From positions 1 through 56,068 of the forward strand of contig NZ_PDWR01000025.1 in assembly GCF_010211755.1 (NCBI RefSeq): a stretch of 56,068 nt of DNA. The letters run 5' to 3'. The notes below the pieces were generated by a model that was not told the origin of the DNA, did not search any database, and saw only the letters and a list, made by a program, of their open reading frames with translations. The stretch's first letter is position 1; each line of letters begins with the position of its first letter. The position numbers were made by a program, and so were the translations under genes. This stretch comes from Pseudoxanthomonas sangjuensis. Its GTDB lineage: Bacteria > Pseudomonadota > Gammaproteobacteria > Xanthomonadales > Xanthomonadaceae. Of the stretch, positions 38,791-53,861 are shown one piece after another.

Positions 38791-40323
38791 TCAATCCTTC
38801 GCCGCGGTCACCGCGACGAACTGGCTGGCGCCGCTGCGCGGGCTGCGCACCAGCAGCATCACCACGTCGCCGGGCTTCACCCCGGCCAGGGCCTTGTTGA
38901 AGGCGGCGACGCTGCCGACCTTGGTACGGCCGACCTGGGTAATGATGTAGCCCGCCTGCAGGCGCGCTTCCAGGGCGGTGGAACCGATGATGTCGGTGAT
39001 CTGGATGCCCTCGCCGGCGGACAGGCCCAGTTGCTTGCGGTCATCGGCGCTGAGGTCGGCGACCTCGATGCCGAGCAATTCGGCCTTCGCGGTCGTCGCG
39101 GAACCCGTGCCGGAATCGTCGTCGCCCTCCCCACCGGACGGGCCGATGCCGGCGTCTTCCTTCAGTGCGGTCAGGGTCACGTCGATGTCGTGCAGCTTGC
39201 CGTCGCGCCACACGCCCAGCCTGACCTTCGTGCCCGGCGCCATCGCGCCAACCATCGGCGGCACCTCATTGAAGGTATCGATCTGCTTCCCGTTGATGGA
39301 ACGGATGACATCGCCGGGCTGCAGGCCGGCCTTCTCGCCCGCGCTGCCGTCCTGCACGTCGTTGATCAGCGCGCCCCGGGAATCGGGCAAGCCGAACCCC
39401 TTGGCCGTATCGGAATCGATCTGGCCGACGACCACGCCGATCTGCCCGCGCTGGATCCTGCCGGTCTTCTTCAGCTGCTCGGCCGCGCTCATCGCCAGGT
39501 CGATCGGGATCGCGAAGCTGACGCCCATGTAGCCGCCGGAGCGCGAGAAGATCTGCGAGTTGATGCCGACCACTTCGCCGCTGGTGTTCAGCAGCGGACC
39601 GCCGGAATTGCCGGGGTTGATCGCCACGTCGGTCTGGATGAAGGGCACGTAGCGCTGGTCGTTGCCGGTGCTGCGGCCCACCGCGCTGACCACGCCGGCG
39701 GTGACCGAGTGGTCCAGGCCGAACGGCGAACCGATCGCCACCACCCACTGGCCCGGCTTGAGCGTGTTCGAATTGCCGATGCGGATGCTTGGCAGGTTGC
39801 TGGCGTCGATCTTCAGCAGGGCCACGTCGTATTGCTGGTCGCTGCCGATCACCTTGGCCTTCAGCTCGCGGCGGTCGGACAGCTTCACCGTCACCGTGTC
39901 CGCACCGTCGATGACATGGTGGTTGGTCAGCACGTAGCCGTCGGGCGAGATGATGAAACCGCTGCCCGACGAAACCCCGCCGCGTTCCTGCGGCCCCGGC
40001 ATCTGGAAGCCCGGGCCGAAGAAGCGGCGGAAGAATTCCGGCATCTCCTCGTCATCCGGCATTTGCCGCTGGGCCCGCGACAGCTTCGGCGTGACCTTGG
40101 CCTCGACGTTGACCACGCCCGGGCCGACGGTCTCCACCAGCCTGGTGAAATCCGGCAGGCCGGTGACGATCTGCGGCGCGCTGCTCTGCGCGATGGAACT
40201 GGTCGCGGCCGGCGTGGAACCATCCGCCGCGACGGGGGCCGGCCGCGCGCAGGCGGCCAGCGGGGTGGTCAGGATCAGCAGGCCGAGCAGGCCGTTGCGG
40301 GCACGAAGGTTCATCGAAGGCAT
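38791..40323 (-). CDS. mucD: Periplasmic serine protease, DegP/MucD (HtrA) family
   Basis: A 510-residue HtrA-type protease/chaperone of the envelope stress response. The N-terminus has a lipobox-like LTTPLAAC (Cys25) or ordinary signal peptide. The protease domain carries the triad H136 (LTNHHVIDG), D166 (QYDVALLKID) and S240 (NPGNSGGPLL). Two PDZ domains follow (about 305-390 and 410-500: AGLQPGDVIRSINGKQ and ARLQAGYIITQVG). It lies downstream of rpoE and the anti-sigma gene, the standard mucD place. The usual separation from the anti-sigma gene is missing: the frame is open through both genes. The start at 40323 is taken from the MucD N-terminus; no good ribosome site is visible there. Confidence 0.93.
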   Translation of the reverse strand: MPSMNLRARNGLLGLLILTTPLAACARPAPVAADGSTPAATSSIAQSSAPQIVTGLPDFTRLVETVGPGVVNVEAKVTPKLSRAQRQMPDDEEMPEFFRRFFGPGFQMPGPQERGGVSSGSGFIISPDGYVLTNHHVIDGADTVTVKLSDRRELKAKVIGSDQQYDVALLKIDASNLPSIRIGNSNTLKPGQWVVAIGSPFGLDHSVTAGVVSAVGRSTGNDQRYVPFIQTDVAINPGNSGGPLLNTSGEVVGINSQIFSRSGGYMGVSFAIPIDLAMSAAEQLKKTGRIQRGQIGVVVGQIDSDTAKGFGLPDSRGALINDVQDGSAGEKAGLQPGDVIRSINGKQIDTFNEVPPMVGAMAPGTKVRLGVWRDGKLHDIDVTLTALKEDAGIGPSGGEGDDDSGTGSATTAKAELLGIEVADLSADDRKQLGLSAGEGIQITDIIGSTALEARLQAGYIITQVGRTKVGSVAAFNKALAGVKPGDVVMLLVRSPRSGASQFVAVTAAKD

Positions 40324-41361
40324 GTGTCGATTGTGATGGGTTCTTGGTCGTGGGTTCCTGGTTGTCGGCCGGCGATCGACTGCGGCGGTTTTCCCGCCGG
40401 CAACCCGACAACCAGGAACCTCCAACCACATTGCTTCAGGGCAGTCCTGCGGCTCCGCTTCCGCCGGCGATTCGCCCGGCGGGGCATCCGGCATCAGCCG
40501 CGGTTCGAACGGATAGAAGACATGCGTCGCGTTGCCGCCGCCGGGATAGCTGGCGGTGAAGCCGCCATTGCCCGGGTACGACTGCAACACCGAACGCGGC
40601 CATGGCCGCGCGGCGGGCACGTGCGCCTGCGCCTCGATGCCGGCGGTGGAGAACGGGTCGCGGTCGCGGGCGCGGCTCTCGCCGGCAGCGCCGGCGACCA
40701 GCACCGGTGGCGCCACCGGCGGGGCAGCGACCATGGCGGCGGCACGCCGCGGTTCGGCTTCGCGGCGCGCCAGCGCCGTGCTGCGCGCGGCCTGCTGGGT
40801 ACGGGTGGCGCTGCGCCGCGTCGCGGCGACCGGGCGCGGGGCGACCGAGGCCACGACCGGCGCCGGCGCGGCGGGGTCGGCGTCGGCAAGGCTGACATCC
40901 GCGGCGGACGAGGCGACGGGCGATCCGGCCGTGGCCGGTTCGGCGGCGGGGGCCGCAGCCAGGGGGGCCGGCTCCGCATCGCCGGGCGCCTGCTGGCGGG
41001 CGAAGAACAGGGCCACGACCGCCACCGACGCGGCGAGCGCGCCGCCCCAGCGGACCAGGGCTCCGCGCGAACGCGCCGTCGATGCCGATGCGGTGGAACC
41101 GGCAATGGCCGGCTCGGCGGCGATCGCCGCACCGACGCGCTCGGCGAAGCCGGCCGGCGCCGGCGCCGTGGCCTGCCCGCGCAACACGTCGGCCAGCAGT
41201 TGCCAGCGCTCCCATTGCGCGTTCAGTTCGCCGTCGTGCTGCAGGCGGCGCAGCAGGAAGCGCGCCTCGTCCGGCGACAGGTCGCCGTCCATCAACGCGG
41301 ACAGCTGCTGCCGGTAATGCAGTTCGAACTTGTCGGCGGGAAGGGGGTTGGAAGAACTCAT
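40324..41361 (-). CDS. rseA: Anti-sigma-E factor, RseA/MucA-like, lacking its own stop codon
   Basis: Starts MSSSNPLPADKFELHYRQQL. The N-terminal RseA domain (about 12-65, LSALMDGDLSPDEARFLLRR and WERWQLLADVLRG) binds sigma-E, one membrane helix lies at 104-121, and an Ala/Pro-rich periplasmic part with FEPRLMPD follows. It is 11 nt downstream of rpoE. There is no stop: 346 sense codons run directly into the ATG of mucD, and the frame ends only at 38791, making a possible 856-residue fusion. The last about 33 codons are encoded by a palindromic repeat at 40340-40428, so the original stop was probably overwritten. The coordinates given end where mucD starts; the real C-terminus is unknown. Confidence 0.75.
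40340..40428. repeat. Palindromic intergenic element between rseA and mucD
   Basis: Perfect 16-bp arms, GGTTCCTGGTTGTCGG (40353-40368) and CCGACAACCAGGAACC (40405-40420), enclose a second dyad (CCGGCG at 40369-40374 with CGCCGG at 40395-40400). The outer flank reads GGTTCTTGGTCGTG. A related element occurs at 52836-52917. When translated, such repeats give runs like PTTRNPRPRTHHN and NDQEPEF, which I treat as repeat-derived and not as protein. Confidence 0.8.
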
Positions 41362-41372
41362 GGGCAATGCAC

Positions 41373-42047
41373 TCAGGAACGGTTGCGCTCGCGGGTGGCG
41401 CTGGGGCTGTCGAGCAGGGGCCGCAATTCGGCGTCGATGGCTTCGCGCGCGCGGAAGATGCGCGAGCGCACCGTGCCGATCGGGCAATCCATCTTCTGCG
41501 CGATTTCCTCGTAGCTCAGGCCGTCCACCTCGCGCAGGGTGATCGCGGTCCGCAGTTCCTCCGGCAGCGCGTCGACCGCCTTCATCACCGTGCGCTCCAG
41601 TTCCTGCCGCATCAACTCGCGCTCGGGCGTGTCGGTGTCGCGCAGGCGCGCACCGGCATCGAACTGTTCGGCGTCGGCGGCGTCCACGTCGTCGGTGGGC
41701 GGGCGGCGGTTGTGGGCGACCAGGTGGTTCTTCGCTGTGTTCACGGCTATCCGGTGCAACCAGGTGTAGAACTGGGCGTCGCCGCGGAAACTGCCCAGCG
41801 CGCGGTATGCGCGCAGGAAGGTCTCCTGGGCCACGTCCTGGCTTTCGCTCCAGTCGTGCACGTACCGCCCGACCAGCGCCACGATCCGGTGCTGGTACTT
41901 GCGCACCAGCAGGTCGAATGCCGCGCTGTCGCCGCGCTGTACGCGCTTGACCAGCTCGAGGTCCAGCTCCTGCGGCGAGCCACCCTCCGGCAGGTCCACC
42001 TTCGAAGGGTCGTGCTTCATCTCGTTTTTGCTCACCGCATCGGCCAT
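41373..42047 (-). CDS. rpoE: RNA polymerase sigma factor RpoE (ECF sigma-E)
   Basis: A 224-residue ECF sigma factor. Region 2 (about 25-95) contains DSAAFDLLVRKYQHRIVALV and ESQDVAQETFLRAYRALGSF; region 4 (about 145-215) contains LRTAITLREVDGLSYEEIAQ and CPIGTVRSRIFRAREAI. It directs envelope-stress genes, including its own operon, when the RseA-like protein is degraded. The ATG at 42047 (MADAVSKNEM) is preferred: an AGGAG lies 11 nt upstream, whereas the in-frame GTG at 42059 is too close to it. It is followed by rseA after 11 nt. Confidence 0.94.
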   Translation of the reverse strand: MADAVSKNEMKHDPSKVDLPEGGSPQELDLELVKRVQRGDSAAFDLLVRKYQHRIVALVGRYVHDWSESQDVAQETFLRAYRALGSFRGDAQFYTWLHRIAVNTAKNHLVAHNRRPPTDDVDAADAEQFDAGARLRDTDTPERELMRQELERTVMKAVDALPEELRTAITLREVDGLSYEEIAQKMDCPIGTVRSRIFRAREAIDAELRPLLDSPSATRERNRS

Positions 42048-42088
42048 GCCGAACCGCACTCCTGTCGATCCGGCATTGAACCGGACTC

Positions 42089-42115
42089 TGTGACAACCCG
42101 GGTGGAAAAAAGTTC
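42089..42115 (-). promoter_or_regulatory. Candidate sigma-E promoter of rpoE
   Basis: The minus strand has GAACTT (complement of 42110-42115), 16 nt, then TCACA (complement of 42089-42093). The -35 matches the sigma-E core GAACTT; the -10 keeps only TC at the start. It lies about 45 nt upstream of the rpoE ATG, where an autoregulated promoter is expected. Confidence 0.6.
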
Positions 42116-52073: not shown

Positions 52074-52817
52074 TTACGGCATGTACATGCCGCCGTTGAC
52101 GTGCAAGGTCTCGCCGGTGATGTAGCCGGCCGACGGACCCGCCAGGAACGCGACCGCGCGGGCGATGTCGGCGGGTTCGCCGAAGCGGCCCAGCGCGATC
52201 TGCCCGAGCATCGCGTTCTTCGCGTCCTCCGGCAGCGCCTTGGTCATGTCGGTGTCGATGAAGCCCGGCGCGACGACGTTCACGGTGACGCCGCGGCTGC
52301 CGATCTCCTTCGCCAGCGACTTGCTGAAGGCGATGATGCCGGCCTTCGCCGCCGCGTAATTGGCCTGCCCCGCGTTGCCGGTCACGCCGATCACCGAGGC
52401 GATGTTGACGATGCGGCCCTTGCGCGCCTTCATCATCCCGCGCATCACCGCCTTGCTGGTGCGGTAGACGCTGCTGAGGTTGGTGTCGAGGATCGCCTGC
52501 CAGTCCTCGTCCTTCATCCGCATCAGCAGGTTGTCGCGGGTGATGCCGGCGTTGTTGACGAGGATGGAAACCGGGCCGAATTCCTTGGCGATGGCGTCGA
52601 TCAACGCCTCGACCTGCGCGCCGTCGGCGACGTCGAGCACGCGCCCCGCCCCGCCCTTCGCCGCGAGGCGCTCGCCGATGGCCGCGGCGCCGGCTTCGCT
52701 GGTCGCGGTGCCGATCACGGTCGCGCCCTGCGCGGCGAGCTCGTCGGCGATGGCGGCGCCGATGCCGCGGCTGGCGCCGGTGACGAGGGCGATTTCGCCT
52801 TTCAATGCTTCACTCAT
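52074..52817 (-). CDS. fabG: 3-oxoacyl-ACP reductase
   Basis: A 247-residue short-chain dehydrogenase of fatty-acid synthesis. The NADP site is LVTGASRGIGAAIADELA, the NNAG motif LVNNAGITRDNLLMRM, and the catalytic set S141, Y154, K158 lies in IASVIGVTGNAGQANYAAAK. It ends GGMYMP. The upstream in-frame extension (residues like RTNDQEPEF) is encoded by the palindromic element and is not protein; MSEALKGEIALVTG is the start. Confidence 0.97.
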   Translation of the reverse strand: MSEALKGEIALVTGASRGIGAAIADELAAQGATVIGTATSEAGAAAIGERLAAKGGAGRVLDVADGAQVEALIDAIAKEFGPVSILVNNAGITRDNLLMRMKDEDWQAILDTNLSSVYRTSKAVMRGMMKARKGRIVNIASVIGVTGNAGQANYAAAKAGIIAFSKSLAKEIGSRGVTVNVVAPGFIDTDMTKALPEDAKNAMLGQIALGRFGEPADIARAVAFLAGPSAGYITGETLHVNGGMYMP

Positions 52818-52835
52818 TTCCGGAATCCCGAATTC

Positions 52836-52917
52836 TGGTTCTTGGTCGTTGGTTCTTGGTTGCTGGCTGCGATGGGTGCGATTACCGCCCCAACCAACAA
52901 CCACGAACCGACAACCG
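52836..52917. repeat. Palindromic intergenic element between fabD and fabG
   Basis: Left part reads TGGTTCTTGGTCGTTGGTTC and continues TTGGTTGC; right part CCAACCAACAACCACGAACC and GACAACCG, an imperfect inverted repeat. It shares the flank GGTTCTTGGTCGT and the GACAACC end with the element at 40340-40428. It occupies almost the whole gap between the fabD stop and the fabG ribosome site. Confidence 0.7.
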
Positions 52918-52919
52918 TA

Positions 52920-53861
52920 TCACTTCCATTCTTCCAGCGCGCCGGCGAAATCGGCCGGCGCCGCCAGCGAACGCGCGTCCAGCGCCTTGTCGATGCGCTT
53001 GACCAGGCCGCTCAGCACCTTGCCCGGGCCGCACTCGGCGATGCGGGTCGCGCCGCCCGCGGCCAGCGCCTGCACGCATTCGGTCCAGCGCACCGGCAGG
53101 TACAACTGGCGCACCAGCGCGTCGCGGATCGCGTCGACGCCATCGTGCACCCTGGCATCGACGTTCTGCACCACCGGCAGCCGCGGCGCGTGCCATTCCA
53201 GGCCGGCCATCGCCTCGGCCAGGCGGTTGGCGGCCTCGCGCATCAGCGGCGTGTGCGACGGCACGCTGACCGCGAGCTTGACCACCTTGCGCACGCCGCG
53301 TTCGCCGAGCAGCGCGATCGCGCGTTCGACCGCGGCGGTGGCGCCGCCGATGACGATCTGCCCGGGCGAATTGAAATTGGCCGGCACCACGACCTGCGAG
53401 TCCGACGCTTCCTCGCAAACCGCGGCGACCAGCGCGTCGTCGGCGCCGAGCACCGCCGCCATCGCGCCGACGCCTTCCGGCGCGGCGTCCTGCATCAGCT
53501 GGCCGCGCAGGCGCACCAGGTGCGCGCCGTCCTTCAGCGACAACGCGCCGGCCGCGACCAGCGCGGTGTATTCGCCGAGGCTGTGCCCGGCAAGTTGCGC
53601 GGGCGTCGCACCGCCCTGCGCCTGCCACAGGCGCCACACCGCGATGCCCGCGGCGAGCAGCGCCGGCTGGGTGTATTCGGTGCGGTTGAGCATTTCCTCG
53701 GGGCCGCCCTGCGACAGCGCCCACAGGTCGGCGCCGGCGCCGTCGGAGGCTTCGGCGAAGGTGTCGCGCACGCCCGGATGCAGTTCCGACAGCTCGGCGA
53801 GCATGCCGATCGACTGCGAACCCTGGCCGGGAAAAACGAATGCGAGTTGCGCTGCGGTCAC
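52920..53861 (-). CDS. fabD: Malonyl-CoA:ACP transacylase
   Basis: A 313-residue transacylase that loads malonyl groups on ACP. It has FVFPGQGSQSIGM at the N-terminus, nucleophile S94 in LAGHSLGEYTAL, and the catalytic His in VSVPSHTPLMREAA. The full length and the EYTQPALLA motif match FabD. A terminator-like hairpin lies between fabH and this gene, so it may have its own promoter. Confidence 0.97.
   Translation of the reverse strand: MTAAQLAFVFPGQGSQSIGMLAELSELHPGVRDTFAEASDGAGADLWALSQGGPEEMLNRTEYTQPALLAAGIAVWRLWQAQGGATPAQLAGHSLGEYTALVAAGALSLKDGAHLVRLRGQLMQDAAPEGVGAMAAVLGADDALVAAVCEEASDSQVVVPANFNSPGQIVIGGATAAVERAIALLGERGVRKVVKLAVSVPSHTPLMREAANRLAEAMAGLEWHAPRLPVVQNVDARVHDGVDAIRDALVRQLYLPVRWTECVQALAAGGATRIAECGPGKVLSGLVKRIDKALDARSLAAPADFAGALEEWK

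Follow-up and report, generated by a model that had tools for sequence, protein, structure and literature searches.

In the sigma-E cascade of Escherichia coli, RseA works at the inner membrane with DegS, an anchored protease that is a protein of its own and has one PDZ domain. In Xanthomonas campestris, the genes rpoE, rseA and mucD reportedly form an operon. The rpoE promoter of Stenotrophomonas maltophilia was described as sigma-E dependent in sections of a study that also quote GAACTT / TCTCA as the sigma-E promoter for Xanthomonas (PMC4229105). Bacterial small repeats (MITE, ERIC and RPE) that are translated in frame with genes are treated in passages of a review (PMC2229807), and heptameric repeats of xanthomonads, (GGGAATC)n, were characterized, in portions of another paper, as lying for the most part between genes and closer to the gene on their 5' side (28 nt on average; PMC4692102). 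No RseA-MucD fusion was found in the literature at the level of the titles and abstract openings listed.

The window, which is the whole 56,068-nt stretch of Pseudoxanthomonas sangjuensis DNA analysed here, carries rpoE, rseA and mucD on the minus strand. The last two are joined in a frame of 856 sense codons that runs from an ATG at 41361 to a TGA at 38791 without an internal stop. An earlier note on this DNA had described such an uninterrupted frame, with 346 codons before mucD and 856 in all, and both counts were confirmed; the 346 codons are the distance from the rseA ATG (41361) to an ATG at 40323. We lean towards a lineage-specific stop-loss fusion of rseA to mucD, in this one assembly, as the explanation of the locus, and in our view it arose recently and is being tolerated, not refined by selection. 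The features used in the analysis were as follows.

41373..42059, minus strand: rpoE (sigma-E), NCBIfam TIGR02939 (RpoE_Sigma70), 350.4 bits against a cut-off of 236.15
40444..41361, minus strand: rseA, 306 codons homologous to the complete RseA of relatives, from PF03872, sister C-termini and hydropathy
40441..40443, minus strand: sense codon TGC (codon 307) at the place of the probable ancestral rseA stop, from the alignment of RseA C-termini
40436..40438, minus strand: out-of-frame TGA, from sequence reading and a frame check
40315..40443, minus strand: junction of 43 sense codons, from codon 306 to the inner mucD ATG, GC3 0.53
40345..40428, minus strand: palindromic repeat of degenerate heptameric units, arms at 40345-40368 and 40405-40428
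40325..40328, minus strand: decayed mucD Shine-Dalgarno sequence, GACA (GAGG in close relatives), from comparison with relatives and duplex energy
40312..40314, minus strand: conserved inner ATG, likely the native mucD start (28/28 relatives; the database protein P0001 begins here)
38791..40314, minus strand: mucD, 507 codons and TGA, TIGR02037 at 492.5 bits against a cut-off of 416.2
52837..52916, minus strand: palindromic repeat, second copy within the window, 73% identical over query positions 4-92, also seen in a 16-mer scan

The rpoE product also matches Pfam Sigma70_r2/r4_2, and the gene directly precedes rseA, with 11 nt from its TGA (ending at 41373) to the rseA ATG (41361). A sigma-E-like promoter match, GAACTT-16 nt-TCACA, lies before rpoE at window positions 42089-42115 (minus strand); its resemblance to the sigma-E promoter suggests that rpoE may be autoregulated.

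When the 856-codon frame was treated as a single protein, Pfam placed RseA_N at residues 18-96, Trypsin_2 at 466-600 and PDZ_2 at 639-730. The sigma-binding domain RseA_N (PF03872) scored 55.7 bits against a cut-off of 24, while the score against NCBIfam PRK10863 was just 41.2 with a cut-off of 263, which makes this RseA a distant member of its family. Hydropathy peaks of the fused chain were located at residues 102-120 (1.88, the strongest), in a proline-rich stretch at 208-226 (1.58) and in the MucD signal at 357-375 (1.43). RseA_N had one match in this genome, so no spare RseA was found, and PF03888 (RseB) had no match in the genome.

RseA is expected to have about 280-320 residues and a stop of its own. 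The homologue search covered about 190-605 aa, and the 120 matches listed of 759 are 275-318 aa long. The nearest RseA proteins among the matches listed, P0121 (86% identical) and P0122 (84%), have 301 aa each, align to window residues 1-306 without a frameshift and both end in EAEPQD, and in the relative L005 a TGA follows the same CCGCAGGAC at the RseA end. Since the sisters end at codon 306 and L005 has its TGA there, the ancestral rseA stop most likely sat exactly at the position of codon 307 and has been lost. The C-terminal alignment that the earlier note proposed for locating this stop thus puts the end of RseA at codon 306, and its statement that rseA has no stop holds, as codon 307 is TGC and no stop follows before 38791. 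The out-of-frame TGA at 40438-40436 may be this stop in a shifted place, or may have arisen by chance.

The rseA-mucD junctions of relatives were collected for comparison. A 317-aa RseA query matched 60 of 61 genomes, the window's own among them. The first junction set comprised 28 relatives with both genes, from 29 fetched loci (L008 was without mucD); the second drew on 80 named loci, 77 of which have an rseA match (none in L057, L069 and L114); and the third comprised 25 of 32 further stretches, the other seven having no same-strand mucD in the stretch or running off the contig. In about a dozen more distant stretches of the third set, mucD does not adjoin rseA and lies 1-1.6 kb further. 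None of the junctions read in the three sets is fused. With identical junctions taken out of the first two sets and of the third's same-genus part, 106 junctions remained, which are distinct sequences and not independent lineages, the original sets overlapping. None of these 106 is fused and all keep the rseA stop, in agreement with the usual order of separate genes with a stop between them from which the earlier note had started. One locus of Stenotrophomonas type, L077 (JAHREJ010000001.1), is titled Bacillus subtilis SK7B5 and is probably mislabelled or contaminated.

Both genes share one frame in 38 of the 106 distinct junctions, where about one third is expected, and a conserved in-frame design with readthrough of the rseA stop in relatives was therefore rejected; in the first genome set alone, which holds many close species, the share was 17/28. 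The rseA stop is the sole separator of two genes in the same frame in 28 of the 106, so that a fusion takes one step. The openness of the frame was itself rejected as evidence. Upstream, the same frame stays open to 44268 (1825 aa) across rpoE, whose own reading frame is a different one, and an open frame by itself is weak evidence at this G+C; it becomes meaningful through the homology on both sides of the junction. Given that 25% of mononucleotide-shuffled junctions were open and that same-frame junctions occur in relatives at about the chance rate, openness is unremarkable, and the oddity of the locus is the lost rseA stop.

The alignment of MucD to TIGR02037 (Do family) spans positions 2-425 of the 434 in the model, and one PDZ stretch passes in Pfam, where two such domains are expected for the family. 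The motifs TNHHV, DVALLK and GNSGG are present, which we take to be the His-Asp-Ser catalytic motifs; their residues H133, D163 and S237 are residues 482, 512 and 586 of the fusion. On these features, MucD is a Do (HtrA) family protease with a predicted catalytic His-Asp-Ser. A signal with the lipobox-like LLILTTPLAAC follows the start at 40314 and is internal in the 856-codon frame; the LAAC motif was present in 7/7 MucD proteins looked at, the window's included. The genome encodes a second Do-family protease, on C66. Identity with DegS (TIGR02038, cut-off 422.95) was rejected, since neither of the two Trypsin_2 proteins passes (MucD 251.6, the second Do protease 302.5). Among genus relatives G001-G015, two Trypsin_2 matches below 1e-30 were seen in 15/15; in G006 the second match lies in a 363-aa frame, and G005 has a third match at 2.9e-25.

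The mucD start had been placed at 40323 in the earlier note, and this assignment was not borne out. The inner ATG at 40314 is kept in 28/28 relatives, preceded by a purine-rich ribosome site, whereas 11 of the 28 have another codon (CCG, AAG, GAG, CTG, TTG) in the place of the ATG at 40323. In close relatives, the start region reads TCGAGGC, one codon and then NTTCGATGA, giving a GAGG-type site and the inner ATG; its counterpart in the window is AATCGACACATGCCTTCGATGAACC. By this comparison, the native start is at 40314 and GAGG has changed to GACA. Duplex energies were calculated with what we take to be the anti-Shine-Dalgarno tail sequence. The window mucD gave +0.4 kcal/mol, where the median of 87 relatives was -9.5; only one of these relatives (L097) has a ribosome site as weak. 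These 87 were drawn from 109 loci by dropping those with a late-starting mucD match or no ATG at the place, and a few genomes are represented two times. For comparison, 37 further ORFs of the window were picked by GC3; 0/37 were without a better site within their first 40 codons, a generous control in that the best of several starts was taken; at the first start, 5/37 had a weak site.

The junction differs from both genes in composition. Its GC3 is 0.53, compared with 0.88 in rseA and 0.92 in mucD, and 0/771 sliding 42-codon windows of the two genes were as low. Judged by this low GC3, the linker is young or unselected, with codon use like that of non-coding DNA. The view of the earlier note that the junction is repeat-derived was right in large part, as the palindrome with arms at 40345-40368 and 40405-40428 occupies much of it. 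The arms are 24 nt each and 88% complementary, and the junction RNA fold reached -64.1 kcal/mol (z-score -4.5), with 0/200 shuffles equally stable. The arms do not cover the lost stop; the stop loss and the repeat are thus separate changes which jointly keep the frame open. We infer that the palindrome is a xanthomonad-style heptameric element in what would have been the intergenic gap.

A search of the own genome with the repeat gave 16 matches at E<=1, including the query and several short ones or reversed arms, and 4 matches at E<=0.001, query included; at the latter threshold none was found in 40 relatives. Read by eye, the genome copies are inverted arrays of a seven-base TGGTTNN-like unit. 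The pattern TGGTTNNTGGTTNNTGG occurred 24 times, often with overlaps inside one array, and its reversed control 9 times; matches of the pattern step by 7 bases at several sites other than the junction, whose copy is too degenerate to be found by the exact pattern. Steps of 14 nt were located in the window at 40339/40353 (junction copy) and 52837/52851 (second copy). The second copy, at 52837-52916, sits where two same-strand ORFs meet (52074-52904 and 52920-53861), a place comparable to that between rseA and mucD, and the copies L034 (on C15) and L042 (on C33) of the own genome start about 6 nt past an apparent gene-end TGA. The repeat may often be placed such that it would extend a neighbouring gene upon stop loss. 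Two RNA family matches to the palindrome, both to animal microRNA models and far below gathering scores, were rejected as hairpin chance. As candidates for the RAYT transposase that goes with REP elements, the genome has 3 Y1_Tnp matches, 2 of them over the cut-off; a short-motif scan around these loci gave one match, at one of the three, and so established no link between the repeat and a transposase.

In the protein database, P0001 (507 aa) equals the window MucD exactly and begins at 40314, so that an annotation pipeline took the internal start. Two contigs are recorded for its cluster, which has 5 members; the longest, at 507,787 bases, exceeds the present contig of 56,068; this being a figure for a 90% cluster, the longer contig may hold the same gene or a relative at least 90% identical, and its support as a second assembly is uncertain. 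No separate RseA more than 86% identical was present among the 120 matches listed of 759, which is expected, with MucD matched exactly, if no stop ends RseA. The pattern indirectly fits a stop-less frame in which the internal start was annotated and rseA was left uncalled. No fused protein of this species was found, as the 120 matches listed of 1161 cover at most 60% of the query. A fused-protein search among the 7993 candidates sharing most words, at about 471-1498 aa, gave P0241 alone, from another species (595 aa, RseA_N and trypsin, on a 5,005-base metagenome contig). It was rejected as a second fusion, since by eye the C-terminal part of its RseA turns arginine-rich and the protease breaks past the start of the serine region, as after a frameshift. 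The RseA and MucD parts of the window are without frameshift relative to their homologues.

The fusion is supported by the open frame, the domains, the sister proteins that end at codon 306, the absence of fused junctions among relatives and the decayed mucD ribosome site. If it is translated, a ribosome finishing rseA would meet no terminator before 38791 and would make an RseA-linker-MucD protein of 856 residues, with RseA at its N terminus. In that protein the anti-sigma domain would stay in the cytoplasm and a single span (102-120) would cross the membrane, the part from MucD being periplasmic or clipped. Free MucD would have just two sources: proteolysis of the fusion, or ribosomes that start internally at 40314, where a good ribosome site is missing. 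The MucD signal inside the fusion would either pass to the periplasm or insert reversed, leaving the protease in the cytoplasm, and this possible reversal appears to be the main structural doubt over a working fusion. Selection for the fusion is opposed by the junction GC3, the intact lipoprotein-type signal of MucD and the lack of a fused protein of this species in the database searches above. A functional fusion, in which unfolded periplasmic proteins would switch on the MucD half, which would then cleave the RseA half of the same chain and release sigma-E, seems to us quite improbable. We would give equally little credence to its corollaries, that there would be no separate site-1 protease and that the lost ribosome site would be an adaptation to obligatory co-translation.

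The DNA frame may also be fused while MucD is mostly made separately from 40314 and exported by its own signal, so that the fusion product would be minor, clipped or irrelevant; in effect, this would be a near-neutral loss of the rseA stop. The conserved start, signal and lipobox, the start of P0001 at 40314 and the unadapted junction codons agree with it. We consider it unlikely, if a serious contender, since 40314 has lost its ribosome site, a strong hairpin has its end some 30 nt upstream of that start, ribosomes from rseA would cross the start without termination-reinitiation, and RseA itself would remain fused. A stop could instead be masked by an error of sequencing or assembly at the palindromic junction or next to it, the genes being separate as in relatives. 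The stop retained in all 106 distinct junctions would fit such an error, as would the location of the anomaly at a palindrome, which can be error-prone, the frame-broken look of P0241, by which breaks can mimic fusions, and the uncertain independence of the 507,787-base contig. However, the stop was lost at 40443, outside the repeat arms, the MucD of this species is among the matches listed and a separate RseA is not, rseA and mucD are frame-perfect, and the ribosome-site change is a further, separate difference; an error is accordingly rated as distinctly unlikely. A -1 slip on C-CCU-GA just past codon 306 would lead to the out-of-frame TGA, which lies in that frame two codons beyond the ancestral end, and would yield both fused and near-normal RseA. 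In its favour, the stable hairpin starts about 8 nt later; there is no tandem slippery heptamer, and we find this reading scarcely credible.

If real and translated, the stop-loss fusion would join the sigma-E inhibitor and a protease one-to-one in a single chain. It would offer a natural test of RseA function with a large C-terminal cargo, and of a Do-family protease acting on RseA in cis. A tethered anti-sigma factor and protease is a possible arrangement, and the signal inside the fusion, which would be wrongly oriented if inserted in the membrane, weighs on this idea. The locus also indicates that stop loss beside a short intergenic repeat can fuse neighbours, with 28 of the 106 relative junctions standing one stop codon away. 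At the level of sequence, it would be a one-genome curiosity of modest interest.

The three genes and their order agree with the rpoE-rseA-mucD operon of X. campestris and S. maltophilia. That operon, like the Stenotrophomonas and Xanthomonas loci with an rseA match, has RseA and MucD as separate genes; the present locus has lost both the rseA stop and the mucD ribosome site. As with DegS and RseA of E. coli, an HtrA-type protease and RseA belong to one pathway; unlike DegS, the partner here is a Do-family MucD joined to the RseA C terminus. A short palindromic intergenic repeat that ends up within an ORF recalls the MITE, ERIC and RPE cases. Those treated in the passages of the review insert into or extend one gene, while the present repeat bridges two complete genes of one pathway. 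A seven-base unit is shared with the (GGGAATC)n repeats of xanthomonads, though the junction copy is degenerate, and the unit here is TGGTTNN-like in inverted arrays, not the GGGANTN of the xanthomonad repeats.
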